Made by a program: the position numbers and the translations under genes
Notes under the pieces: generated by a model
What the model saw: the letters and a program-made list of their open reading frames with translations, nothing else
Told to the model about the DNA's origin: nothing
Database searches by the model: none
Shown here: piece after piece, positions 3,584 through 33,032 of the stretch
Position numbering within the stretch: position 1 is the stretch's first letter
Layout of the letters: each line of letters begins with the position of its first letter
Origin: Intoshia linei
Lineage: Eukaryota; Orthonectida; Rhopaluridae
DNA length: 49,061 nucleotides
NCBI GenBank assembly: GCA_001642005.1
Contig: LWCA01000130.1
Span: forward strand, 1 to 49,061
Direction of reading: 5' to 3'

Positions 3584-6500
3584 TTATGCAAACATGTTTT
3601 CGTTGTCTACAGGTAATACAGCATCCTCAGAGGTTCCAAAATTTAAAAAGTGAGCAGGTCTGTGTACTTCATGATAAAAATTTTTAGGTGTACCAAGTAC
3701 GACATCATAGTGCATATTTACGTCGTGGCGAACTCCTATTTACAACATAAATATAATAGTTCATAATACATTACCCATAAAATTGTAATTCCAGGATACA
3801 TGAGTAGGTATCATGAAAAATCCCAAGAATCTATCACTAAGCAACATTTGGACACGTTCATAGTGAGTAGTCATGTAACCACGTGGATTAGCTCCTTTTT
3901 CAGTATTTGACCGACCCCATTCAAAACCACCAGGTGTAAGTTTGTAGGCAGCAAGAGAACACGACCCAGGCGTAAAACTAGAAACAATTATATACATATT
4001 AAAAACGTATACCTGCATGTCATAATAACTGACTTATCACCGTCCCATGATGGGTTATCTCGCATTATTTTAGCATGCATGGTTATGTCCTGAGGAGAAA
4101 GCTGCGGCAATTCATTCGGCTGAGTGTGAATCCAACCCAACGGTTCATAATCCTATATAAAGTTAAAAATATCCAAATAAATCAAAACCTCTAAATAAGT
4201 ATGCTTTGGTAATTGGTTGGGAACATAAACATTCTGGTGAGTTCCGATCTGAGGAACCATAACAATACATTTAATTTCTTTAACTGATTTATTATCCGGA
4301 GGACTAATTCCATACAAGTACCCACAAATCTGAACACGTAAATCTGAAATTACGATAAATTTTTTCAACAAATTTTTTGGCAATACATATGTATAACTTG
4401 TTTCCTTTAAATCTTCACTACTAACATAAATATGGTTGACTCTGAGATGCAAATTAGTTGAAGAAATTGCTCTAACTCTCCATTCGGTGCGCGAAGAAAA
4501 TATTTGAGCTTCATAATTACTAGTGGTTGTGGAAATAATAGAATCACCATGTTTATTCACGGTTTGCGTAGTAATGGCAGTTATTTGAGATTGCTCCGAA
4601 GATTGCTTTTCTATTTCTGCAATTTTTTGTCGGTCCTGGGAGGGTGCAGTGATTTCCATACCAAGTATAATGTCACGAATTTCCGATTGGGTTAGAGATG
4701 CCACATTAACATTATTTTTTTTACCATAATCAGCCAAAATTAAATCTTTTAATTGAACTTCAATTTTGACCCACTGTTCATCTGTCAAAGAAGGCCAAAC
4801 ATGGTGAGGTTCAACAGTAGTCAGTTTGTCTGGTCTCAATATCAACTTAGCTCTGTCATTATTTACATGCAACGCTCTTAATATGAGAATTAACCTGGAA
4901 AAAGCAGTATAAGAGGAAATAGATTTCAACCAATCATCATAAAGGTTGAATAGTACCATTTGAGGTTCTGTAGCTTTCAAAATTAAATCACCAAATTTTT
5001 CAACTTTCATGCATGCTTGGAAAGGAAGTTGCAATTCACTTCCTTTGATAACAATGTTTGGAAAATCGAGTAAGTGAACTTCTAACGGGTCTAACATACC
5101 TCTACGAGTGACAACAACTTGTTTAGGTTGTTCTTCTACAGGGAGTGATCTAATCAAAGCGGCAACTTCTTCTGCAGTTTTCCATTTGGCAAGTTGACTT
5201 AAACGTTTTTGTCCGGCCCATACAGATGTATGTATAATTTTTAAAAATAGTTGACCTGTCCTAGGATTAAAAATGAATATTGCGCCATTAATTGGTTTTG
5301 TTGTCAAATTACCTTCAAAAGTTTTATGGATTGTGACTCTATAGACATTTGTATCATCCACAAACCAAATTATTTGATTTGAGAAAAGTTCTCCGTAATT
5401 TTGGGATGATAAATAAGGCTCAGTCGGTTCTGATGAATATAATTGCAAACCTTTTCTAATTCTTTCTCTGAGTACATACAACGCCGGATTGGCTTTCATT
5501 ATTTTTGCCATAGCTTGCTGGATAAGAGGCTTTGTTCCGGGTATCCAATTTCCATAAGCACTGTGTAAATTGTAAGCCATGTCAACAGCAATCAATGCAC
5601 CATAAGGTGAAGGGTAGATACTCATATTATCAGTAGTATAATCCAAAAATTTAGCACGTGCATATCTCTCCACATCATGCGAATCAAAATCTCCCCACCT
5701 AAGCTGAACATCAATCCAATATTTTTGAGTGGTAGAGTTATCCATCGTATCTTTAGTGTCAAATAACAATGAAGGTCTAGAAACATTCCATTTATAAGAG
5801 GAAATTAACAAAATATCAGCACATGAGCTATTCATTTTATAAGATTTTCGAGGGTGTATAGTTTCTTTCTGTACTGTTTCTATACTAAGAGCATCTAATT
5901 CTTGGTCCAATACTTGACACAAATCCATAACTATACTTTCGTGTACTTTTTGCCATAAATGTGCACGGAAAATCTGAATTAAAGAAATTTTCAGAGTAGG
6001 AATTTTACCATGCATGAATATACCAGTTAGGTCAAGTTGTACTTGAAAACCAACATAAACATTTGCGCGATTAATTGTAGGAGACCACCATAGTGTAAAA
6101 CGTCGATTTGGTATTTGATTTAATCCAGCCCTTTGTGCATTTGTAAGTTTTTTAAATTTCATAGATTCTTCAAAGCCACTTGCTTTTTCCCAAAACAAGC
6201 CCTCCCATGTTGGAAAGTATGTTCCCTTAAACAAAGTATGCTCTAATATTCCTTCTACGCCACCAAGTGCTTGTATCATATCGGTTCGGTAATTATTTAA
6301 ATTCCACAATTTTCCGTCGTGTCGTTGGTGAGTCCACCAGAATGGATTTTGTCGTAAAACTTGATATTGTTTAAAATCTGTACGTACACGCCAACCCTTA
6401 TCATATGCCAAAGTATGTCTATCAACTTGAAACAAAGTGTTTATTCTTGGAATGCCTCTATCCCAACTGTCTTCCAAGTCTTCTAAAGTGAGACGTCTAT

Positions 6501-9500
6501 TCTGTGCATTCGCTTCTTGACGTTTCAAAGCATATTCGGCCCAAACACGCTGAGAATCAATAAACTCACTTTCCCAGGGCATGATATATCTGTACAAATT
6601 AGGAATTAATTGATCTTCATCGTGAGTCATACCTGATCTAAAATGGGTTATTCCAGTATCGGTTTGTTTAGACCACCTTAGATCCGAAGTAGGTATCAAT
6701 ACGTGACCCATACTCAACATACCAAGACCACCTAGTTCTTTAGGTGTATAAAATACAACGGGTGGAAATCTACTAGGCATTTTAGAATTGAGACCAATTT
6801 TTATTCTAGTTTGAATTTTATTTTCACATTTAACCAATAAATCTAATAATTCTTGAGTGTTTACTACAGCCTCTCTGAAATAAGTCATTAGTCCAATAAG
6901 AGAGGTATTCCATTTGTTCACAATTTTTGTAAAAGTAGTAGACCCTGATGCCATCAAAATTTGTCTTACTCTGTTATGAAATCTTTGAAGTGATTCATCA
7001 TCAACTCGCAAAAAGCATTGAGCTGTACGTTCCTTTGTTACTTCATTTTGTAAATTCCATACACCGTCCCTATGAGCAAATTCCTCATACGTCATTCTAC
7101 ATTTTGGTAATATGCGACATTCAAAGCCAGACATATTGAACAGTAAATTCGGATTGTCTTTACTATAAATTGAAACAAAATTAGAATTCCAGTTTATCGT
7201 TGTAATTGAACGTGGCAATCGGTTTTTCATATCCCAAAACACTGCTCGCCCCAAATTTACATCATGCTTCATAAGTCGCATACGAGCGTCCCGTGGCCAA
7301 CATTTCTTATTATTGTATCCAACAATATTTTCATTGTTGGGATCGGGGTGTTCAGTTAAATAGCGTTGTATCAAATCCTTAGCTTCATCTGCAGTAAATT
7401 TAAAAAGTATATGTAGTCGGTCAATATATCTGGAATAAAGACGTACGGGATGGACTTGTTCGGTTTCGATATCCTTATAAGTAAGAAAATCATTGGGCAT
7501 TTGAGGAGGACCTGCCATTTGTGAAGCACGTTGTAATCCGAGTAAAAGTAAATCTAGAACTAAACCATAATACTGAACTATAAAAGACGCGTACTGTAGA
7601 CCTCTAATTATTCCATAAGAATTAGTGTGATTCATATCCTTATAATTTATAACTATGTTATTCTTGGCAGTCATATAATCAGCTATATTGTGATCGACAA
7701 TAAGTCGCAACAATCTATTTAGAAGAGTTAAGTCAATTTTTTCCGTTACTTTTTCAAATTTTGTGTCCATCATGACAACACATTCACCATCATTAGTTTC
7801 CCAAATTTCTTGTAAATTATTAATACCCTGACACCATTTGTACACAAGCAATGGTGGAGGTTCTGAATCGGACGGTTTTATCCACGGAGGAAACAACCTT
7901 CTTTTATCAGCTTCGTACCATAAATACTGATCCAAATATGCATCAGTGATTTTTTCAAGAGGTTCTACTTCATAAATGGGTAAAAGATGGCTGTACAAAT
8001 CCATAAACTCGACGCCTATTTCTTTAAAAGCTCTCTGAGTAAGCAAATGTCGTTTGATTCTGGATAGTGCTTCATGAGGGTTGTCATATGCCTGTTCAAT
8101 TAAACCCAATTCTTCACGTTGAGCCTGATTTAATCTATTCTTAACACTATATGCTTCTTTTAACCTTTCCAAACACAAAATAAGTAACTTTGTGTCATGT
8201 TTATACGAAAGCGGAGGAAAAGGTATCGGAGAAAATCTACGACTTTCTAACCAATGCACAGTTGTAGTATATATTGCAACAGCTTCTTCTGCAGATATGT
8301 AGGGACCATCTTTTAAATAGTTGTGTTGTCTCTCTTGCTCTGCCTTTAGATATAATCTGGTGAGTCGTCCTAAATTTTTTTTACACACCGTTTTATCTAC
8401 CGTAGCTCCTCTTCGAATTCGTTCTCTGTTATAATGTGCTGTATTTGTCCACCAATCTGCTTTAGCTTTGACATATCTCAAAATAATATTTTCAATAGGA
8501 ATGGGTAGCCCAGGCACCTTCCAAGGTATATTAGCTTTCCAGCAACGCCAAGCTTCACTCAAATGCTGCAATATCGTTCTAGCTTTATTATGCTTGATAC
8601 CTTCTGGCATCATGTCCAGTATATCGTGCATTACTGCGGCTCTTAATTCTAAATCATAGTGACTTTCTACTCTTTGTTTCGTCACAGTTTTAGCAACGCC
8701 TTTGGAATGACGACCCTCGAATTGTCTGGACAATAAATTTCCTAACCATCTTTCCAATAATGGAGTGATGCCTCTCATAAAAAACAACCAAACCCTCCAC
8801 ATCGGTGCCCAAAATCCTACACCTGGTCCTTTACCAACGCTACCGGTATTAAATCTATAGTATATGACATGCTTCAAATCTTTGCACATCCTAATTTGTT
8901 TCATGAGTTTGTATTTATATCTGTACATCCCAGTTAATTGACCGACGTGAGAGAATATGTATTGAATACCATCAGCCAGCTGAAAAGCATCAACGTTACC
9001 TAACCTATACTGTACTTGGCTGTCCACAAGAAGTTTAGTCAAACGTAATATTTCACGACATAAGTGGAAAGCATTCCCAAACCTAGACTTTTTTCGTTCC
9101 TTAGTGGTCAAAGTTTTAACTGGCTTAAGGTTAAAATTGTAATCAAGATGAAGATAATTTAAATTTTTTCTATGAATAAGTAAATTCAACATATTATAGC
9201 CTTGACGACATACTTGTAAACCAGCTTCGACCCAGTCAATTTGAGTTGTTTGAAAAAATTTTGTAGATTTGAAGGATCTGAATAAGTATCTTCTTTTTTG
9301 AGATTTTGGTGGTCGTTTGTGCAAGCGATTTAGTACAAAATATTTCAAAAGTTTTTGATAGGATACACGGACTTTGACAGGCATACCTGAAGGACAATGT
9401 TCAGAGTACCAATTGTTTATCAATGGTATATCTATGGCTCTTCGAGTTCGATGAGATCGCATATTGAATGGTCTAGGTGCCCATAATAAAGCAATTCCAT

Positions 9501-12500
9501 TTGAAGTATTTTCGCTGTAGAGATTGTCATGCGACAAAAGTGTTCTAAAACCCTGAGGTAGAATAAATTCTTCATCGTCTTGCGATTCGAGAGCATCTAA
9601 TGTTCGAACGTTGTGGCGTTGGGTAATTGGATTTATCAAAGGGTCGAAATAAAATGCTGGCAAATCTGGATCTTCCGTTTTAATAAAAACAACATTTGGA
9701 GTGTGATATCTAAGAATATAAAATATATAATATACCAATCTTACTTTGATATTTGAACTTGAAAGGGTATACTATTATACAAATAGGGAAAAGCGATTCT
9801 ATATTCTGTTCTGATTGGTTGTCTAATAATTATTTTGTTTATATCATTGAATTCATTCCAATCCTCATCTCTAAAATCAGATAAATAACAAAATTAGACT
9901 AAAAATACTCCATGTTTTTCGATTTAACCAACGGTTCAAATTTTGGTCCACCAGGGATGGCCATGTTGAGAGCTTTGGCAGTAAAGAATGACTTTAAATC
10001 GAAGAGATAAAAGTAGTTGTCGTCTACCAAGTCTGTAAGGAGTTGATTTGAAAGTCGGTAAAGTGTTGAAATTTGATTTAAGGAAAGAAACCATTTTCGG
10101 TAAGAAGTTCCGTTTACATGTCTAAATATAAATAGTAATTTAGTGCACCATAAGTTATAGTTTAAATTATTTAAATTAACATATACACTGTGTAATGATA
10201 ACAATTACAACTGAATAAGGATTCTTAACCTTTTTTTACGAGCGTCTCCATTTTAAAATTAAAAAATTATTTACGACCCCACTATATTTTATTACTGACT
10301 ATATATAATTCAAATTTATTGAGTGCTGAAAAGATAAAAATCTAAATACAGGTAACCCGAGATTAGTGCAGTTAATCAATAGTAAATTAAAACCGCACTA
10401 ATCGAAGGTTACCTGCATATTATACATTTTTCAATGTCATTTTGATGTTTTTGGTGGAAATAGTTCAAAATTAGTATTTATATTGTAGACAATGGTTCTC
10501 AACGGTGAGCTAAGTGCCTCCCAGAGGAGAAATTATTTTAATTTAATTGTGTAGTGTGCAAAATATTTAACTTTAAAATAGGATTAGTGACTGTCATATA
10601 GATAATTTACAGATATGCACAAAATTATGACATAATGTATAAGTTAAAATTTAGTCATGAATGAACTGATTGGGGAGGAATTATAAAAAAGGTTGAGAAT
10701 CACTGTTGTAGACACTGCAATGGGGACTTGTTGATATAATAATAAATAATTGAATAAAATCACTTGATTTTAAAAATCTATTCGGTGAATCCAAAATGAA
10801 TCGTTTAATTTATTAACAAAATAGCATTAATTTATTTTATTTTATTAGTTATGATTTTTGCAAATTGAAAATTAAATTGGAGAATGATTTAAATCATTTA
10901 TCAATGAAAAATAAATTTCTTTTAATTAGGCTTGTATACACAAATACATGGAATATAACGAAATAAGTATATCTATGCAATATACTACGTACAATATAGC
11001 ACAAAATTCGAAAAAAACCAATGCGTATATTGGTGTCAATGATTATTAGAAATTTGAGATAAAACGTTGCAATTAGTAAGTCTGGTAAATTAACCTAATT
11101 TGCATTAAAGCAGATTTTACTAGATAAAACAAAAATAAAGCTACAATATAAAAGCAAACATTACAATTTTTACAAGATAATCAATAGTCATATGTTTACA
11201 CATAGAAAGATGATCATTACTAATGAAACTAAAATTTAACAAAGTAGTATAACAAAAAATAATTCACTCACATTAGAAATATGGGAATAAAAAGAGAACT
11301 GTTCGTAAAAAAACTAGACGAACATTTTCATTGTGGTATTTGCTTAGATGTATTCGAAAAAACCACCATATGTTGTTGTGGTCACAGCTTTTGTCAAGAA
11401 TGCATTTATAAGTGGGCCACAAAAACCGACAAAAAAGAGTACAAACTGAAAATAACGTGCCCTACGTGTAGACAATCCATATCACGTGATTTCTACCCAG
11501 TGTTAACCGTGGATAGTATAATAAATAGTCAAAATGTTCATTGTCAATATCAAAAGTTAGGATGTAAATCTATATTCAAACACTACGATTGGGACAAGCA
11601 CAATTGTACTTACACAGCTAAAAAAAATCAATTGTGTCGTAAATCTCTAAGAAAAGATTTGGACATAATAGAATCATGTATTGAACGATTGGAGGAAAAC
11701 ATTGTACTCATACGAGAGCAAATAAAAAAGACAACAGATCTTATCAAACTAAACGGAAATCAGTTACTAGTATTCAAAACACAAGTAGAACTGTCTGACA
11801 GTTAAGCAAAATAAAAAATACTTTGAATCCAATAGTGGTTTATGATGATAAAACCATTTAAAAACAGATTTATCCTCATTTTCATCCAAAGGAATTTGAA
11901 TCGCTTCTAACGGTTCAGCATCCAAAACATTATCTCCGTAATCAAGAGGTGGTTCTTCGTCATCAAAAGGTGGAAATCTCATCCTCTTAAAATGACGCCT
12001 ATCTCTTTTTTCACGTCTCATCATAATCCACATAGTTCTATAAAAATAAATTTTTAATTACAATGATTGTTACCCCCATTGTGCCAAATATACTGGTTCG
12101 ACGATCCAAGGAATTTCATTGACAAACGTTATAGCACCAGTGACATGATACAGTACGTTCACATCTCGGATTTGTTCCCATGGCATAGGCATATTCTCTA
12201 GTAATTTCATAATTGCATGTGGCATGTATTTCAGTGCACTAATTCATAATTTATAAAAATAGTATTTTTTTATACCCCAAGTAAACTCTTTTATCGTGTC
12301 TAAATTTTCGACTTGTCAAATCGCCATGATCCTTTATAATCTTTCTCACATGTTCAGGTGGCATATCTTCTTTCTGTATGTCTACATATCCAAATTTTCT
12401 TTTCTCGCTGTATTTTTGTGACTGCAATTGCTGCCATTTTTGCGCTGTATTAAAATTAGAAAAATTTATAAATTACAAACATTTTTCTTGAAGCTGAATA

Positions 12501-21204: not shown

Positions 21205-22559
21205 TTATATATAATTAATTTGTACGTTTATATTATCTACATTTCTTGTAGAAAAAAACTTTCTGATATTTTCTGAATTATTAATATTATATTATTTTTA
21301 ATTACAAATATTACGTTTATATTGCATTGTATCTCGAAATGTATAATTTTTATACAAAATTATTGAAATGGTTGAAACATTATTTTGGCCATCGAGGGAC
21401 CAAATGTGTACAGATTCAATTGTCATTATTTGTGGCACCTATTTTTGTATTAAAAAGGAGTATTTTTATATTTTTACCTCATTTTTTAATTCACTTTTTA
21501 AGTTGTTTAAATTATATCTGTCTGGTGTCTTCTGCATTAATATTCTGCACGTTTTTCCAACTAAATAATAGTATGTTTTGCTTTATAAATTAAACTTATT
21601 GGAACAGTTCCAATCATCAGTATAATCACTATAATGGAACTAAATATTTAATGTAAATTAATTTATTGTCAATTTACCTGCAGATTGGATCAAAATATTG
21701 AACCCAATCATACTCTAATTTCAACATAATAGTGGCATTGACTATAACCATTATTGAACCCATTATATCACCAATGATGTGTAACAAAACTCCTCTAATG
21801 TTTAAATTTGGATTTACTAATTAAATTTAAAAATTATAAATTTTGATAATTTTTAATTGTAATTTTAAACCTCTATAATTTTTAATAAAATTTGTATATT
21901 TTTTGCAAAAATTCTTCTTAGTTTCATGGGGTTTTGATTCTTTTATGTTTAAAATTGCATCGTTAGTTGAATTAACATATTTTGTGGGGTTGGGCAGTTT
22001 ATCCCAGTAATCTAAAAGTTACTGTATTTATTATTACGTTTAATTTACCATTGTGATTTATTACAAAAAATCCAATAATATTTATTATTAGTCCTAAAAT
22101 AGCAATCCACAAGATTGACGGGAAATCTTTTTTTTGAATGAAATAAACACGTTCCATCTCACTATTATCTTCTCCGTTATAATTTAAAATTTTATATATT
22201 GAGAATATTTTAATAAATATTTCAATCATTATCGTCCAACATAAGGTTATCATAAAAACTGCATTTGTTAGACCTCCCAATATTATCGATCTTGATCTAC
22301 CATAACTGTATTTGATACTTTTTTCTTTAGAAAACTATTTACAAAATGTAATTAATTGCAGTAATGGAAAATTATTTTATATTACCACTAATGCGAATAA
22401 TCCAATACCAAAACCAAATACGTCTCCGAACATGTGATACGCATCTGATATTAATGATATAGTGTTACTGTAATGTCCAAATACTAATTCTACCACGAAA
22501 TATGCCAACGAAAGGAAAATCATTAAAATAAATCCCCATGTTGACCTGGTGCAAAACAT
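21205..22559 (-). CDS. SLC30 (ZnT1-like) zinc transporter (8 exons, 352 aa)
   Basis: Cation diffusion facilitator that moves zinc out of the cytosol by proton exchange. Exons: 22559-22386, 22334-22049, 22011-21871, 21816-21678, 21639-21596, 21560-21478, 21438-21315, 21272-21205; total 1059 nt, exact frame; introns 35-54 bp. The four zinc-site residues of the membrane domain are present: H42-xxx-D46 in 'DAYHMFGD' (TM2) and H213-xxx-D217 in 'LHIIGD' (TM5). 'RSIILGGLTNAVF' matches TM3 of the family, and the C-terminal domain keeps 'VHIWSL' where ZnT1 has 'LHVWQL'. The usual histidine-rich cytoplasmic loop between TM4 and TM5 is replaced by a short, histidine-poor linker. Closest to the ZnT1/ZnT10 branch by gene structure and motifs. 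Confidence 0.9.
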
Positions 22560-23049: not shown

Positions 23050-25859
23050 TTTTAAAAAAGGAAATGAATAGCGAAGATTGTGGTGGATTAAAAAAGTTTA
23101 AAGCCAGTGATGGATAGATAAGGTCATTCAAACGTAAGTATGATATGTTATATAAAACGTTGTCTGGTACGAAAGCATCATTTAGTCAAAATGATATTGA
23201 TGATTTCTTTCATATTTTCAAAGATAAATTAATTGGGTATGAATTAAAGGACATTTTTAATGCCGATAAAACTGCACTATATTATAAAAAATTGCCTACG
23301 AAAAGCTACATCTTTAGTGCACAGGAATCTACTAAAAAGATTAAAGACAATAAAGATAGAATGACAATTTTACTCAACTGTAGTGCTCTTGGTGAAAAAA
23401 TCAAACCGTTATTCATTGGAAAAAGTGCCAAACCACGGTGTTTCAAGGGATTAAATATGAATGAATAACCTTTATATTATGAAAGTAATTAAACAGCTTA
23501 GATTACAAGTTGAATATTTCAAGATTATATGGATAACACTAGACAACAAAATGAAAACTTTTTTCGAGGATCAGCATGAGACCCATACAAATAAAAAGCT
23601 GAAATTTTGCTGATCAACATGATACTTCTCTTTTTAATTTTACAGTTCGCTATCAAAAGATAATGATTGACAACATCATAGCAACTAAGCTATTTCAATT
23701 AATTTTAGTTTTTTAATTTTAAATTTAATTATAGTATATAATGAGATATTTAAATTTTTTTTTCAATATATATGAAATTGATAGCGGATAATTACATGAT
23801 CACATTTAAATTAAAAAGAAATGAATATTAAACAAATTACAGGTGTACAAAAATTTAACTGATGACAGGCGCTTTAATAGGATGAAGATCTGATATGAGC
23901 TATAATCAACCTTTTAACAATACATTCTAGTGTCTAAATCCAGATTTACGGAATAGATTTAGTTCGATATTTTTAGCTATTGATATTTAAAAAAAATATA
24001 TTAATAAATTTAATTTTTTTTCATTTAATTTATCAGTATACATTGAAACAACTGTTTCTTGAGATAATAATGGCTCGGATGATGAAACTAAATTATATAC
24101 TTCCATTGGAATTGGTAAAGTTGAACTTTTGGTGGCCGGATAAGAGTAAAAGCTTAATTTATTCAGGCTTTATTTTCTTCTTTTCAGAATACAGAAATAG
24201 CAGTCATTCGCACTTTCTGAATGTTTCCATATTCTAGGTGTCACAAATCTCTTTTTAAATCTCATTATAGACGAATGGCACGTTTGATATAGATTTGAAG
24301 GATTTCAAAGTTGATTCTCGTACATTAAACTGTATATTTCCATTATCAAATTTTTACATTTATCAGTTATAGTAACATTTTTTAGTGTTTGGCAAATATA
24401 TACCACATCAAAAGCAATAATATGTTTCGTTTATTTCATAGACATGCATTTTAAATTAATAAATAAATATTCAAACTTAAAAAACTTCACCTTTTTTAAA
24501 GTAAACATTATTTTGAATGATATAATTGGTCAATTTTAGAATTGAAGTGAAACTTTGTTATATTTTTTTTAACATTAAAAGTGTTAATAAATGGGTGATA
24601 TGAATTATAACTTATAAATATATTATATCATTAAAATCAGCGCTATATTATCCACAAGATGGTATTATTTTTATGCAGATGTATTTTTCAGTGTTGTCTA
24701 GTGTAATTTAAATTATTTATTTTACAAAACTAATAGAAAGGTTCTTATTTTGATAGACAAGGCTACATGCCATTCTGAAATGAAATTATATAATGCTGAT
24801 ACAATGTTTTTACCTACCAATACAACATCTATGTTACAACTATCAAGGTGTAGTCTGGTCGTTTAAGTTTATTTATACACAGATATATATTAGAAATTTG
24901 ATTAACAAAGAAAACCTTAAAATCAAAAATATGAGAGGAATCACTATTCTTGACGACATATTATATTCCGTTGAAACTTGGAATAAAGAAACGATTCAAA
25001 ACTGTTTTAAAAAACAGATGTTATTAATGTGGAAAATTACCAATCCAACACTTAGTCAAATACGATCGTATCAGAATAGGAAATGTTGAGTCTATAGTTA
25101 ACAGAACTTAACTCGTATAACTATAATGTAACTATTTGATTTGAAAGATGCTGAACAATATAGCGATAATTACAATTTTGATGGGTTAGAATTTTTAATT
25201 GATAAAGAATTTGAATAAAATAGCCAGGAATTTACAAATATGGACGAATTATCAAGTAAAACCATTTGGAATTCGGAAGATGATATCACAAATTCTGACT
25301 ATATTAGGTATACGGTATTAATTGATCAACTAAAATCGATGATATCAAAAATATGTCCGAATAGTTTAATTAATATTTACTCGATAGAAAATGAATTTCA
25401 CGAAAAACTATCAAAGAAGAAAAGACAAATAAAAATATTTGAACATTAAGTTTTGTATAAAAAATAATAAATTTTTGTGAATTTATTAGAAATGAAATGA
25501 AAATAAAAAAAATTTATTATTTGAACGTATAGCACATTATTTATAAAAAACTTGTTAAAAACAATGTTTTTACAAAAAAATTCCTCGTTAACCCTTTCAG
25601 TCTGATGCAATTTTATGTACTATCACCACACGTCTGGAATTTATTTTTTAATTTATACTTGTATTATTTTTAAATTACCTATGTGAAAATGTATGAAAAT
25701 AAAAAAATGGTCTTTCAAAATTATGCTGTGTATATCATAGAATACAGACATGTTAAGTGAAATTGCTGTGTATAGTATAGAATACACAGACAGTGAAACG
25801 GTTAACGAAATGGGATTTTTTTTCAGGACCAAAAATTTCGTTAACGAGGAATTAGCCTG
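23050..25859 (+). pseudogene. Dead Tigger/pogo transposon with interrupted transposase
   Basis: A CENP-B-type helix-turn-helix ('KKFKASDG.IRSFKRKY', with a TAG at 23115-23117 replacing the usual tryptophan) is followed by the start of a DDE domain: 'NADKTALYYKKLPTKSY' (first D) in 23145-23468. More stops lie in 23466-23560. The domain then resumes near 24730 with 'ILIDKATCHSE' (second D), 'FLPTNTTSMLQ', and after a frameshift 'QGVVWSFK'. The roughly 1.1-kb gap between these parts looks like a later insertion. The right terminus CCTCGTTAACGAGG-type repeat ends at 25859 next to TA. The left terminus was not found, so the left boundary is approximate. Confidence 0.8.
25592..25801. mobile_element. 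piggyBac-like MITE nested in the Tigger right end
   Basis: The termini CCCTTTCAGTCTG and CAGACAGTGAAACGG are inverted repeats flanked on both sides by TTAA (25588-25591, 25802-25805), the piggyBac target. Removing it would restore a continuous ATTCCTCG-TTAA-CGAAAT arm of the Tigger end, showing insertion after the Tigger. Internally, TGCTGTGTAT.T.ATAGAATACA is repeated twice near the right end, as subterminal repeats. Confidence 0.8.
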
Positions 25860-26408
25860 TATTTATTCTACAATTTCAAAAAAAATGTGCATTGAACGTC
25901 TACACAATTTCAATGATGAAATATGGGTGAAAATCTCATAAATTGATTCCTTTGGATTTTTTGTCATTGCTCGCAATTTTTCATTTTCAAAAAGTTAATC
26001 ACTCTTAAATTAATCAATCATTCTAACATAACATAACCATAACACTATTACATTATATGAAGTTGAGCCTCTTTATAACTATCCCACTCTGTCTGAAAAT
26101 TCTGGATCCGCTACTAATCCCAATACCCATTTGGGAACCGCTGCATTATATAAATTGATGGACCAGATTCTTTATAACAATTAAGGAAATGAATAGTGAA
26201 TAATAAAAATAAAATATATTCCAACTTCTTTCAATATAAATTTGAATCAATATTAGCAGAAAACTATGTACAAAGTTAAATACGAAATTATACCTCGATA
26301 TTATTTAAATTGTAGTAAGGCATATATTTTTGAATTTAAATAAAAAGATTTATAAATTTAATAAATCTTGACAAACAGAAAATAATTAAGTTAGGTAAGG
26401 TTGGCAAT

Positions 26409-26792
26409 TTATACAGACGAAGATGATCCGTAGTCTGGATCGTTAGCATTTGTATTTTGGTGTTTAACGGGCTGAGCAGTATTATTTCGTCTGTATAAAA
26501 ATACAACAGCCAACAATAATAGCATCATTGCTCCAATAAACAATTGCATTACAGAATTAGCATTTTCGTGTAGTGATTGTGACGATGAATTACCTGAAAT
26601 TAAAATAGAATAATAAAATATATGTAATAAATAAAATAAAATTGTACTAGTAAGGCATTCATTATTGTTACATACAGTTTCAGTGGACCCAATCTAAATA
26701 TCGATGTAAAACTCTACTTAATAAATTACCATATTCATTAGACGAGCCATCGCATTTTCGTAAATCCATACACACTCACAATTATCTGACAT
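26409..26792 (-). CDS. SMIM14: SMIM14-like small ER membrane protein (3 exons, 97 aa)
   Basis: Exons 26730-26792, 26648-26693 and 26409-26593, total 294 nt. The N-terminus 'DNCECVWIYENAMARLMNM' matches the SMIM14 hallmark '[20 protein letters not shown]', and a later 'VCNNNECL' matches 'YCTDTECLQ'. A single membrane helix follows (about residues 54-73, 'LFIGAMMLLLLAVVFLY'), ahead of basic RR and a short polar tail. SMIM14 is a single-pass ER membrane protein of poorly known function. The introns are 36 and 54 bp. The middle exon was inferred from phase and the Cys pattern and is the least certain part. Confidence 0.8.
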
Positions 26793-27688
26793 GTGAAAAT
26801 TTTAAATTCCGACGAGTGAAGTAAACGTAATCAGGTAAACAATTGAATCTAATGTATCCAATAGAAAATAAGCACGTAATACCAAGTATCTATGTATTTA
26901 TAGTTTAATTAGAACAGCGATTTTTAAATACAAGAATTTCAATTAATTTAATAGAGCAGAATTTATGTAGCTTGGTTACAGTTCCATTCTTAAAGTGTAA
27001 CAAATGTTTACAGATATAAACTGACTACTTGTAGTAGCCTTCCTAGACAGTTGTAAATTATGCTGCCTGCTTAAATTACAATCACTCCTTTCATATCGAT
27101 TTTTTGACATTTGCATGACACGAAATTATTGAGATTAAACAAAAAAATTTTCCCTTCCCAACATTTGTTATTAAAAAGACCGAATTACGGGATTTCAAAA
27201 ATAAAATTATCGCCTGGCTATGATATAAACACTATCTACTAATGACGCCCAGTTGTTAAAATGCATAATAGTGACTAGGCAGCAGACACTCATTAAGATC
27301 AAAACATAAATTAGAATCATGTAGTGACAATCATAGGCAGACGACTTAAAACAATGACAAAAATAGACACTCAAATAAGTCTAACTTGGCTGCAACCAAT
27401 GCAGCCTATTTGTTTGTAACTAATACAATATTGTGTGACAGCTTTTATTGTTATGGATATACGTCAGCTGCCTTCAATACAAGCCACATTCTGAATTGTA
27501 TAGTTGATTTTCTCCTGTCGACAATATTTATATTTTACGATGAAAACTTGTTTTTCAAAATATATCATTGTAAGCTCACTAGTCAAAATATTAATGTTAT
27601 ATTATCCTGAATAATCCAAAACACACGTATATTCAATTTATTAACCCTTTTCTTTTAAAATTGACACCTGTGTGAAAGAAGATCATAT
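26793..27688. other. Intergenic, shared upstream region of SMIM14 and the Gag-TALE gene
   Basis: The two genes are divergent, so this 0.9-kb stretch should hold both promoters. No clear TATA or initiator combination was picked out. A 74-aa open frame at 27386-27610 has no recognisable similarity. Confidence 0.4.
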
Positions 27689-29497
27689 ATGATGAAATCC
27701 AATTCTAAACAAAAATCTCCTAAAAAATTTTCATTACAAACAAGCAATAGCATATCTCCAAATCCTTCATTCAATGATGCAACCCAAGCACCTTTGATCG
27801 ACGATATTGAATCACAAAGAGATTACAACCACGATACAACTGAAAATAATATTGAGTCTACTGATGCAGTGTCTATATCTAAAGAATATTTGACTAATTT
27901 TCTTAAAAATGATCCTTTGTTATCAGGTAAATATTTGTCAACAGAAAATATTAAAATTACACCATATTCATTAAACACTTTTAAATCGAAACCCCGGCAC
28001 TCCTGGGAAATCCATAGTCTGAGCGACGTGGACAGATTTAATCTGATGATGCAGAGCTTATGCTCCAATGAAACGGAAAGAATATATTTTATTTTCGGAG
28101 AGTTGTCACGCATCTCAATTGAGATTGTATGTAGTTACCACAATCTGTCTGGTACTAATTTAACAAGTTCAGATATTATAGATATTTTACGTAAACATTT
28201 TATCAATAAAAATAATCGGGGCCAAGAACGGTATAACTTTATGAACATGCGTCAAACTGATGACGACCGTGTGCAAGATTATTATGTCAAGTTACGCACA
28301 GCCGCAAATGGGTGTGAGTGGGGTGAAATCGAAGAATCATTAATTGTTGATGCTTTACTTAATACCACGAAATGTAGCTCTAAAATACCTATCGATATAT
28401 ACAACTCCAGAAAAATATCTGCAGATGAAGTTTTAGAAACATTGTCATCTCTTGAAAATAGAGAAACACCGATTGCATTGCCAAAGAGTCCCATAAATGA
28501 ATGTCCCACCAAGCCAAACTTGTCCGATCTCAACAAAAACCCTATTATAAACTCTCCTTTTTCCAGTGGCTTTGAAGTGCTATATCTATCACCCGGTTTG
28601 ATTGATAAACAGTTAAAATTACAAATTAGTATAGACAGACAATTTGCTAGTAATTCCGACTCTACGTTCGTACAGAAAGTTCCTGCCGGTATGAGTTATA
28701 GTGAATTTGTGGAACGAGAGTATATTGACGGCGGAAATGAAAAATATACTCAAAATCCTTTATTTAAACTTATTAAATTTTTGGCTCAATGTGACAATTG
28801 TTTTTGGGCAAATAGTCTATCTCAACAATATCTACCACGTATTCCAGTTAAATTTGATGAATTGGTAGAAAAATTTAAAGCCATCAATCCTCAAATATTT
28901 ATTAATTTTGATGAAAAAGATCAGCCGTCAGAAGAACTTTGTCAAGTTTGCCGCTACATTCACATGTCCATCCTTAGTAATTGTTAATATTTTATTTTTT
29001 AACATTAAAATAGTGAAACTACAGCTTCGCCATAAAGAGGCCGGATCAAATAACTTCACAGTTCAAAATGCGGCAGATGTATTATTGCTGTAATTTTTTA
29101 ATTAATGAAAAATTTAGAATGTCTCCGGTTTAAAACGGTACAACACTGAACAAATTATCTATACTCCAGATTCAAAAAAGAAAAGATTTCTTACTCGAGA
29201 TGTTTACTTGTCTATATAGTTTATATTTAAATTTAGGCTACAACTATAATGATGAAGTGGTTGAGAGAGCACAGAAATAATCCATATCCTAATGAGTACG
29301 AAAAAGAACAACTTTTACGTCAAACAGGAATTAAGAAATCACAACTAAATTATTGGTTCGTCAATGCTCGTAGAAGAATCATGAAATCCTGGTCATCTAA
29401 TGATTCAGAAAAAATAATTGAAAATGACTCTCCTCCAAAACCTACCAACACCTCATCCCCTAATTTAAAAAAAGAAACCGAACCCATTAAAACGTAA
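27689..29497 (+). CDS. Gag-like domain fused to Meis/Prep-like segment and TALE homeodomain (4 exons, 565 aa)
   Basis: Exons 27689-28976, 29014-29078, 29118-29201 and 29237-29497 join through introns of 37, 39 and 35 bp into 1698 nt in exact frame. Residues about 103-256 resemble the capsid part of LTR-retrotransposon Gag ('MRQTDDDRVQDYYVKLRTAANGC', 'EESLIVDALL'). Residues about 353-436 look like the N-terminal Meis/Prep interaction domain: 'YTQNPLFKLIKFLAQC' against 'Y-RHPLFPLLALLFEKC', and later 'CRYIHMSIL'. Residues about 472-533 are a TALE homeodomain with the 'NPYP' three-residue loop and 'WFVNARRRI' recognition helix. The predicted role is a DNA-binding transcription factor with a Gag-derived extension. 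No reverse transcriptase, protease or LTR is seen nearby. Alternatively exon 1 could be a separate Gag-derived gene, as a stop follows in exon 2 if the 39-bp intron is kept. Confidence 0.72.
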
Positions 29498-29528
29498 CTG
29501 TTTATATACATTAAAAATACAAATATTG

Positions 29529-30536
29529 TTAACATTTAAGCCAAGGGTGATTTTTAATAGCATTTTTTGATCTATCTCCATAATCATACATAATTTCTTC
29601 ACCTATGTCTATGTGCTTGAAACTTACAAAGTACAATCTCGGTTTTCCTTCTACTGTAATCGTTTTTGATACTACATTTTTTTTTTTTGCAGAGTGGTTG
29701 ATCAATCTACCCAATCTTTGTGACTCTTTAGTTGCATCTATGCTAACAAATATATATACAAATAAATATAAAAATACCAATATGATTTTCCACTATACTT
29801 AAAATAGTACATGTAACATCCAAATGAATCGCATTTAACATAATCGGATTCTCTCTTTTTTGCTTCTTTGACAGTTACAAGTTCTCCAGCATATTCTACT
29901 ATAAAATCTCCACGATTAAATACAACTTTAGAAACAATTCCTCTTCCTTTATTGTCAAAATGTTCAACCTAAAAAACATTGAATTGTACTTACAGTGATA
30001 CCTTTAGATTTTGTTCATCGTTCCCATCCTTTATATTTTGATATAAAATTAATTGTTTTTGTTCCTTTCATAATGAATGTAAATTAATAGATTTTATACC
30101 TGAATACTCTTTTCGGTTTTTCTGTTACTTCTCCTCACATAAAAAAAAGAAGATATTGAATTACGTTTCATATCATCCTTGTTCCCATTTTTTTTACTTT
30201 GCTTCGAAATTTTTTTCTTTTTATCAATTATGCTGTTAATTTCGACAGATGTTTCATTATCGCATAATGTCTTGTCTTTTTCATCTTGGATTTTTATTTC
30301 GGTTGTATTTATACTATTTTCAATGCTGTTGGTTAAAGTGATAACTGATAAAGCATCAGAAGCAGAGTTAGAAATTGACTTTTTACTATTACAATCATTG
30401 ATTAAACTTGCACCATCATTTAAGTTTTTATTTTTCGTTTGTTTCGCTAAAAATAAAAATAATTTTCATTTAAATTTTTACCTGATTTTTTGTTGCATTT
30501 TGGTGAAAAATAGTTTGTAATTGTTTTTAGTTTCAT
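29529..30536 (-). CDS. KMT5A: KMT5A/PR-Set7 histone H4-K20 monomethyltransferase (5 exons, 289 aa)
   Basis: Exons 30482-30536, 30100-30446, 30002-30064, 29778-29968, 29529-29742; 870 nt, exact frame; introns 33-35 bp. The C-terminal half is a SET domain: 'DNKGRGIV', 'GDFIVEYAGE', 'GCYMYYFKY', 'CIDATKES.RLGRLINHS', 'EEIMYDYGDRS' and the ending 'HPWLKC', as in human SETD8. It monomethylates H4 lysine 20 and controls cell cycle and chromatin compaction. The N-terminus starts with a PIP-box-like 'KTITNYF'. A second one, 'SISSFFYVRRSNRK' (about residues 115-128), aligns with the PCNA-dependent degron of human SETD8. It converges on the Gag-TALE gene, with 31 bp between stop codons. Confidence 0.95.
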
Positions 30537-31157
30537 AGTTCAAATTTAATTAGGAATAACGTTTAGCGCCATAAATATTATCTTCATTAGGTAACTAATG
30601 AATAAATATATGTTTATTTAGTTATGGATTTACATTTTTGCCATATGCAAATCTAAATGTAAACAATACTAATAATACGACTGGTTCGTATTAACATCAT
30701 ATTTTTAAATCTTAACTTCGAAGCTTTGAAAGTAAAGTACTATAGTTATTAATATTTTTGCATTATAATATACCTATTGTAATTGTATAATAAAAATTAT
30801 ACAGATTTTCTAGCGTCCGATGTTATATTATAAAAAAAATCTAAATATGCATCATACTGATGTGGAAACTTATTTTTATAAAGTTATAAAATATATGAGA
30901 TCAAAACCCGTAGTCAATTTTAAATGTCTATAATTCTGATGTAATTTAATGTTTGATGAGTCACAAAATATGGATTCCAATTATCAGGAATTGTGTGTAG
31001 TATGTTGCTAAAATATACATGAAAATTTAAAACAATCACAAATTATGATTTCTCATTTCATTTTGTATAACCGTGGAAAACAAAATAACAGTAAATTTAC
31101 CGAAATGTCTTTGTTACTAAGAATATATAAACATTTTGTTGTATAATTAATTCAGCA
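30537..31157. other. Divergent promoter region of KMT5A and AK8
   Basis: A 620-bp AT-rich interval between two divergent start codons. No distinct motif can be assigned with confidence. Confidence 0.4.
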
Positions 31158-33032
31158 ATGGATGTTACCAACCGCCCCTTTAAAATATCAAAGGAATTTT
31201 TGAAATATGCAGAGGAAAACAATCTATTTGATTTATTCACAGTATAAAATATTTAACTATTATCATGAATTTTAGGATTTATTTCAAAAAATCATAATAG
31301 ATAAACCGCTTGACCCTTTGTTATATATACAAGAATACATGAAAGATGATTTGAAATTGAATAGTAACGTATAAACTACATTTTACAAATCTTTGTAGTT
31401 CCAAAAATATGCATAATAGGACCACCTGCTTCTGGGAAGTGTACAGTATCAAACTTATTATCCTTTCAGTTATCTGCCATCCACATAGATAGAACTGAAA
31501 TATTAAACAATGCATCCACAGATTTTATGAAAGAAATTAACGAATATGATGCGTGGGTATAACAATTAATTATAATTAATCACATTGATATTAGGATATC
31601 CCCATCGATTTGTGGGTGCGTCTTCTTTCAGATCGTCTCAAATATAGTGATTGTGTCAATAATGGTTATGTCTTGGAAAATATACCTTCATCCTTAGAGG
31701 AATGCTTGTTAATACAAGAAAGTGGAATTATAATAAACAATTGCAGTAGATTTTATATTTTTAAATCTATATTTTGATTTTAGTTGTTTTAAATACCGAA
31801 GATAGTGTTCTGGTCGAAAGATCCATAGGAAAACGAGTCGACCCTATTACAAATGGTTAATTTGTTAAAATTCGTAGATAAATTATATTAGATATTTATC
31901 ATTTAACGTTTGACCCTCCTCGTACTATGGATGTAGCGCGTCGTTTGATACAACCAGAAAATAATGGAATTGAGAGAATCAAGGAAAGATTAGAAGAATA
32001 CAGAAAACTAGAAAAAAAATTAAAAAAATATTATAAACATATTATGAGTGAATTTAATGTAGATATGCCAAAAGAAGATATTTTTACAAAAGGTAAAAAC
32101 ATTTTGAAAATATAATTCGAATACATGATTAGTTTTAATCCACATACACACATTTAAAAAGAATATTTCTCCATTGAAACCGAGAATATTAGTTTTGGGA
32201 CCAATAGGATCTGGTAAAAAATATCAATGTGAATTATTGGCCAACAAATATGGATTTGTCAATTGTAAATATTTAAAAAATGTATTTAATGTCTAAATCA
32301 TAAATTATTTTATGTTTTTACTTTCAGATCCAATTTTTTTATGTATGTTCTAAATTATAATTATTAGTGTCCAGTGGTACATTGATAAAGGAGGAAATGT
32401 GTAAAAGAAGTGATATTGGGATAGCTTGTCAAAATTATGTAGACAATAACAAACAGAGTAATTTTAATATTTACGGGGGAATATACATAATCTACATGTT
32501 TAGTTCCCGATGTCCTCGTCAACAAAATAATGGACGAACGGTTGAGTCGAAATGATTGTATTTATAAAGGATGGGTTTTACGTGGATTTCCTAGAAATAT
32601 TGATCAAGCATTAATGCTTACGGAGAAAGGATTCAATCCGACTAGGTTTAAGCCAAAGCGCATTAAAAAATCAATAATTTAGAGTGTTTATGTTTGACAT
32701 CAGTAAAGAAAGTATATTGGAAAGATTAACATTAAAGCGAATAGATCCCTTGACAGGTAACATTAAAAATATTATTACAGTATATTTTAGGAAACAAATA
32801 TCATTTGCTTTTTAATCCACCATTGGACGAACTAGTAAATGACCGATTATTAACTCACTTATGCGACTCAAGCGAATACATATTCATGAAAATTGATAAA
32901 TATTTAAATTATATTGAAGTTTTGAAAGATTTGTACAAAAATATAATTCAACAAATAAATGCAGATCAACCAGCAAATACTATTTTTGAATTGTTAGAAA
33001 GTTGGATCATAAAGGCTATTATAAAGGATTAA
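31158..33032 (+). CDS. AK8: Adenylate kinase 8 (11 exons, 477 aa)
   Basis: Two adenylate-kinase repeats as in human AK8 (479 aa). Exons: 31158-31241, 31276-31363, 31399-31556, 31595-31745, 31784-31855, 31892-32092, 32133-32264, 32368-32457, 32504-32645, 32683-32756, 32791-33032; 1434 nt, exact frame. Repeat 1 has P-loop 'GPPASGKC' (residues 65-72), 'GKRVDP' and 'YHLTFDPPR'; repeat 2 has 'GPIGSGKK' (274-281), 'GWVLRGFPR', 'LKRIDPLTG' and 'YHLLFNPP'. AK8 is a nucleotide kinase of motile cilia and sperm flagella, so the organism probably makes flagellated sperm. In both Walker A motifs the Ser/Thr after GK is replaced (Cys and Lys), which may weaken catalysis. An AATAAA lies about 40 bp after the stop. 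Confidence 0.95.

Follow-up and report, generated by a model that had tools for sequence, protein, structure and literature searches.

Has a capsid domain from a retrotransposon become part of a developmental transcription factor in the orthonectid Intoshia linei? The question is raised by contig LWCA01000130.1 (C406) of the I. linei assembly (34.65 Mb, 1319 contigs), whose whole length of 49,061 nucleotides (nt) we call the window. An earlier note on this DNA had proposed that a gene at 27689..29497 joins, in a single spliced frame, a Gag capsid-like region, a Meis/Prep motif and a homeodomain of the TALE (three-amino-acid loop extension) class. Our analysis indicates that this gene, which we call the fusion gene, is probably a host gene of I. 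linei encoding a divergent TALE protein, whose N-terminal half appears to be a domesticated Gag capsid domain of the long terminal repeat (LTR) type. The union of a Gag capsid-like domain and a TALE homeodomain in one frame is supported by sequence comparison, by a fold model of moderate confidence and by introns held in common with a second divergent TALE gene on contig C68; the Meis/Prep motif did not hold up. The coordinates of all features are collected in Table 1.

Two Pfam models recognise the Gag domain, at about residues 107-261, each below its curated cut-off; Gag ORFs (open reading frames) of this genome likewise score under the Pfam cut-offs. On residues 91-265 of the predicted protein, Retrotrans_gag gave an E value of 0.0011 (19.6 bits; cut-off 24.1) and PNMA gave 0.0025 (17.7 bits; cut-off 25). 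As a yardstick for these values we used a Gag ORF of the same genome, on contig C1146, which scored 0.0062 and 2.7e-5, respectively; that is, the fusion protein does better than this ORF on Retrotrans_gag and worse on PNMA. The database version of the same ORF (A3Q56_01357, I. linei) scored 0.019 and 1.5e-4, and four further ORFs that we take as Gag (C41, C645, L023 and L033) were recognised by neither model. When exon 1 was compared with the whole genome at E values up to 10, three matches were returned: itself, C41 (0.0165) and C1146 (0.0237). Both of the non-self matches, at 20-23% identity, are Gag ORFs of LTR-element type. The one on C41 precedes a reverse transcriptase, RNase H and integrase, which is the Ty3/gypsy order, and the one on C1146 precedes a zinc knuckle and a DTGS protease motif, the motif being recognised by eye. 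A third Gag-like ORF, on C645, lies upstream of a reverse transcriptase. A profile built from these three ORFs matches the fusion protein with an E value of 3.7e-8 (Z = 1000), a result that is partly circular because the ORFs were themselves found with the fusion protein as query. A search of the genome with the Pfam Retrotrans_gag model was uninformative, matching nowhere, controls included, and a search with PNMA picked out three weak places, the fusion locus not among them. Pfam reported neither a zinc knuckle nor a protease for the fusion protein.

The prediction that this region would adopt a capsid fold was borne out in part. A single-sequence model of exon 1 failed, with a predicted local distance difference test score (pLDDT) of 33.9. 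A second AlphaFold model, of residues 89-265, was made from an alignment of two rows, the second row being a Gag protein, and this model, of moderate confidence, is capsid-like. Capsid proteins account for 47 of the 50 matches listed by Foldseek and for all 50 of those listed by VIA, and the classes represented are retroviral, retrotransposon, Arc, PNMA, MOAP1 and PEG10. The C-terminal lobe of the two-row model matches capsid structures well, and the N-terminal lobe is modelled at low confidence. Against a viral fold library none of 117 matches reached an E value of 0.001 or better, and the rows were mixed. Taking the sequence matches and the model together, we regard the assignment of the exon 1 domain to Gag as well supported.

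The TALE homeodomain in exons 3 and 4 is, from its sequence, certain. Exon 4 alone matches the Pfam model Homeobox_KN with an E value of 1.3e-18 (67 bits; cut-off 24) and at 68.3 bits in the genome search, for which 15 Homeobox_KN matches were listed genome-wide, and the three-residue loop extension that defines the class is present as PYP. Among PDB sequences the homeodomain is closest to PKNOX1 (2.1e-15), then to Meis proteins (7.6e-14 and weaker) and then to TGIF1 (1.1e-11); its identity to the MEIS1 and PKNOX1 homeodomains is 45%. It shares 55% identity over 60 columns with the homeodomain of the C68 gene (58% by genome search). An 11-row tree that includes reference homeodomains pairs these two with support of 93/97, below the level that the tool stars; the tree has long branches, and one of its eight inner branches is well supported. 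In the numbering that we take to apply, the homeodomain carries Tyr47 and Val50 and retains Asn51, Arg53 and Arg55. The available portion of PMC5322547 gives isoleucine, alanine or glycine at position 50 as diagnostic for TALE genes. The fusion gene has valine at this position and the C68 gene threonine (as placed relative to WF.N.R), a departure from a soft residue criterion and not from the class-defining loop. Because the residue is atypical, the specificity of DNA binding may be altered.

The Meis/Prep motif (NPLFKLIKFLAQC) had been read in the helix-rich segment that precedes the homeodomain. The corresponding Pfam model, Meis_PKNOX_N (PF16493), has no match on the fusion protein, nor on its contig in the genome search, in which the only contigs matched are C756, over the cut-off, and C758, under it at 17.5 bits. 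Alignments to the Meis N-domains of MEIS1, PKNOX1, PKNOX2, HTH and the canonical Meis gene on C756 were equalled by 80-615 of 1000 shuffles, according to the reference and matrix used. A four-sequence profile, hhalign, and both local and global shuffle tests were likewise negative, and we rejected a Meis/Prep N-domain here. A decayed Meis/PKNOX N-domain is possible, because the stretch of the protein that aligns best with PKNOX1 and PKNOX2 (residues 331-351) falls in the claimed region. Another possibility is a PADRE-like region, PADRE being a conserved region of about 87-90 residues ahead of the homeodomain in some spiralian TALE genes, molluscan ones among them, according to the available portions of PMC5322547 and PMC8524836. 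The fusion gene resembles Meis and PKNOX genes in that its homeodomain is closest to theirs among PDB sequences, but differs from them in having no detectable Meis_PKNOX_N, and also in the place of its homeodomain intron: at that place, common to the fusion gene and the C68 gene, the C756 gene has no intron, and its frame is continuous from KKRGIFPK through FQHLS.

Do the Gag domain and the homeodomain belong to one protein? Computed translation of the four exons upholds the continuous spliced frame that had been proposed, giving 565 residues and a stop. The three introns are all GT-AG, and their phases follow from the exon lengths (1288, 65 and 84 nt). Exon 1 holds 432 open codons, for which the probability in a given stretch is 4e-17 under the base composition of the window; on the same basis, the probability that the 165 codons past the Gag domain remain open by chance is 5e-7. 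The proposed frame has the top codon score among the six frames in all six segments tested. Over the Gag part, however, the margin of the proposed frame is small (-0.04 versus -0.09 to -0.15) and does not exceed the 95th percentile found for intergenic DNA. The introns had also been likened to those of every neighbouring gene; a spot check gave 25 nt for an intron proposed in the SET-domain gene next to the fusion gene and 66, 47 and 40 nt for the introns of the C68 gene.

The C68 gene bears directly on the splicing. Its introns have phases 1, 0 and 0 and lie at places matching those of the fusion gene. The third splits the homeodomain at one place in both genes, between LTRD and ATTIMM in the fusion gene and between LPKE and AIEIMM in the C68 gene. 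The flanks of the first intron are also in register, reading SIL/MKLQLR in the fusion gene and SLL/VKLHLR in the C68 gene, with a score that was reached by 16 of 2000 shuffles, and in the fusion gene the Gag-bearing exon closes with the residues that precede this intron. The common intron phases and places, together with the similar residues over the first junction, support the splicing of the Gag exon to the homeodomain gene. The contig starts inside the C68 gene and so cuts off the N-terminus of its protein; the first 186 bases had only their self-match in the genome search.

If intron 1 were retained, the frame would stop at 28985-28987, after three further whole codons, and the product would therefore be Gag only. 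This immediate stop on read-through favours an alternative in which there are two genes or products, an unspliced Gag-derived ORF ending at 28987 and a TALE gene with another, unseen first exon that skips exon 1. The same alternative gains from a gene model drawn from DNA alone, from the length of exon 1 beside the other exons (65, 84 and 261 nt), and from the protein database, in which no annotated fusion protein was found by searches limited by length and shared words, although at least one I. linei protein is present. We nevertheless consider two products rather unlikely, since an intron of equal phase interrupts the C68 gene at a matching place and is flanked by residues similar to those in the fusion gene, where the ones before the intron are the end of exon 1, and since the frame stays open so far past the Gag domain.

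Given a Gag exon spliced to the homeodomain exons, a second alternative is that a Gag fragment was recently exonised into the TALE gene and is functionless and not selected. Retroelements are indeed many in this genome (101 RVT_1 matches were listed), and third-position GC content is higher in the Gag part and linker (0.34-0.35) than in the parts around them (0.20-0.30). However, a DNA search found no second copy of the fusion gene in the assembly, the region 25500-31500 around the gene shows no long direct repeats, the Gag relatives are distant and the frame is unbroken, all of which makes recent exonisation quite improbable. None of the RVT_1 matches listed is on the fusion contig; with no such match, no long direct repeats and no second copy, the locus does not have the makings of an autonomous LTR retrotransposon. 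We infer from the unbroken frame of so isolated and diverged a Gag that it may have been under selection.

That the Gag region is instead a helical part of a spiralian TALE protein, evolving fast and similar to Gag by chance, would fit the sub-cut-off Pfam scores, the moderate confidence of a model with a Gag in its alignment, and the helical PADRE region known ahead of spiralian TALE homeodomains (available portions of PMC5322547 and PMC8524836), but is very improbable when two separate Pfam Gag-type models fall on one stretch, exon 1 has two non-self matches in the genome and both are to Gag ORFs of elements, and the fold lists are dominated by capsid proteins.

On the preferred reading, that of a domesticated Gag domain in a TALE protein, a Gag ORF would long ago have been captured into, or ahead of, exon 1 of a TALE gene that already existed, and its frame would have been kept open by selection. 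The capsid part, chiefly its C-terminal lobe, would let the TALE factor dimerise or multimerise, and the homeodomain would bind DNA with a specificity altered by such residues as Tyr47 and Val50. Retention of intron 1 could add a Gag-only product. The nearest parallel is found in the SCAN zinc-finger factors of vertebrates, in which a domain derived from a Gag capsid likewise lies on the N-terminal side of the part that binds DNA. The SCAN domain corresponds to the C-terminal portion of the Gag capsid of a Gmr1-like element (available portion of PMC3406341), and SCAN dimers resemble the C-terminal domain of retroviral capsids (available portion of PMC3720700). The fusion gene differs in its TALE homeodomain, in apparently having both capsid lobes and in its spiralian host, and self-association is assigned to it by analogy. 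By that analogy, the earlier suggestion that a captured Gag adds multimerisation is reasonable, and the capsid part probably serves self-association of the TALE factor. We put forward only tentatively the bolder idea of a working Gag-TALE factor whose capsid part assembles it on DNA into dimers or larger oligomers resembling capsids. It would be an invertebrate counterpart, of independent origin, to the SCAN zinc-finger proteins, and possibly one of a two-gene family should the C68 gene carry the same part beyond the end of its contig.

Other known systems resemble the fusion gene in one part. Arc/dArc, PNMA, MOAP1 and PEG10 share the capsid-like model, with dArc2, dArc1 and PNMA2 among the matches listed by Foldseek and MOAP1 and PEG10 among those listed by VIA; to our knowledge, none of these is a homeodomain protein. 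The chimeric Bs1 gene of maize differs in having been born by transduction inside a retrotransposon, and the available part of the source does not mention a homeodomain. The lophotrochozoan TALE clades and SPILE genes, some with PADRE, are likewise divergent spiralian TALE genes (available portions of PMC5322547 and PMC8524836), and the word 'gag' does not occur in the available part of the source on them. Among the papers listed by searches of an open-licence library, none named a Gag-homeodomain fusion in its title or the opening of its abstract. Searches of the protein database found one Gag relative and nothing related to either the fusion or the homeodomain part; as the set seems to contain few animal proteins, this says little about other species. 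What is new is the combination of two parts that are each of a known kind. If expressed, the gene would be a further case of capsid domains recruited to transcription factors, best known from the vertebrate SCAN zinc-finger genes. If the reading is true, capsid lobes would be a module that DNA-binding proteins can reuse to self-associate, found here in an extremely simplified spiralian parasite and in a small, testable protein. The homeobox repertoire of I. linei is among the smallest (available portion of PMC6543705), and here a developmental gene would have gained a part, whereas the lineage is otherwise known for losses.

Table 1. Features of the fusion gene on contig C406 and the two TALE-class genes compared with it
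Feature	Position	Strand	Remarks
ORF holding exon 1	27665-28987	+	Open frame
Exon 1	27689..28976	+	Disordered-looking N-terminus, Gag capsid-like domain, linker, pre-homeodomain segment; ends in phase 1; GT donor
Gag capsid-like domain	28019..28471	+	Residues ~111-261; Pfam below cut-off, Gag relatives in genome, capsid-like model
C-terminal lobe of capsid-like domain	28205..28471	+	Residues 173-261 (model residues 85-173)
Helix-rich segment	28739..28976	+	Residue 351 to first junction; site of claimed Meis/Prep motif
Intron 1	28977..29013	+	37 nt, phase 1; counterpart of same phase at matching place in C68
Exon 2	29014..29078	+	Resembles C68 over MKLQLR/VKLHLR
Intron 2	29079..29117	+	39 nt, phase 0
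Exon 3	29118..29201	+	Ends with first homeodomain residues, KKKRFLTRD; junction as in C68
Intron 3	29202..29236	+	35 nt, phase 0
Exon 4	29237..29497	+	Remaining TALE homeodomain (to ~29392), C-terminal tail, stop; Homeobox_KN
Second divergent TALE gene (L003)	C68:1-2150		Truncated by contig start
Canonical Meis gene (L018)	C756:26500-35500		Conserved Meis_PKNOX_N exons; homeodomain intron-split; divergence apparently far below that of the C406/C68 pair

Several other genes were noted in the window. Convergent with the TALE gene lies the SET-domain gene (29532-29968, minus strand), with SET matches of 5.2e-9 and 2.8e-5 on two ORFs; it resembles KMT5A/SET8 by eye, and its proposed 25-nt intron is at 29969-29993. 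An ORF of 1872 codons (4153-9771, minus strand) matches PRP8 domains, among them PROCN and PRP8_domainIV, PRP8 being the core spliceosome protein. A RING-finger ORF (11263-11802, plus strand) matches zf-RING_2 over the cut-off (E 1e-7), and a Cation_efflux match (22002-22334, minus strand; E 8e-6) falls slightly below it, at 26.2 bits versus 26.6. A possible remnant of a DDE_1 transposase (23118-23465, plus strand; E 0.0011, below cut-off) has, by eye, a similar ORF beside the C41 retroelement.
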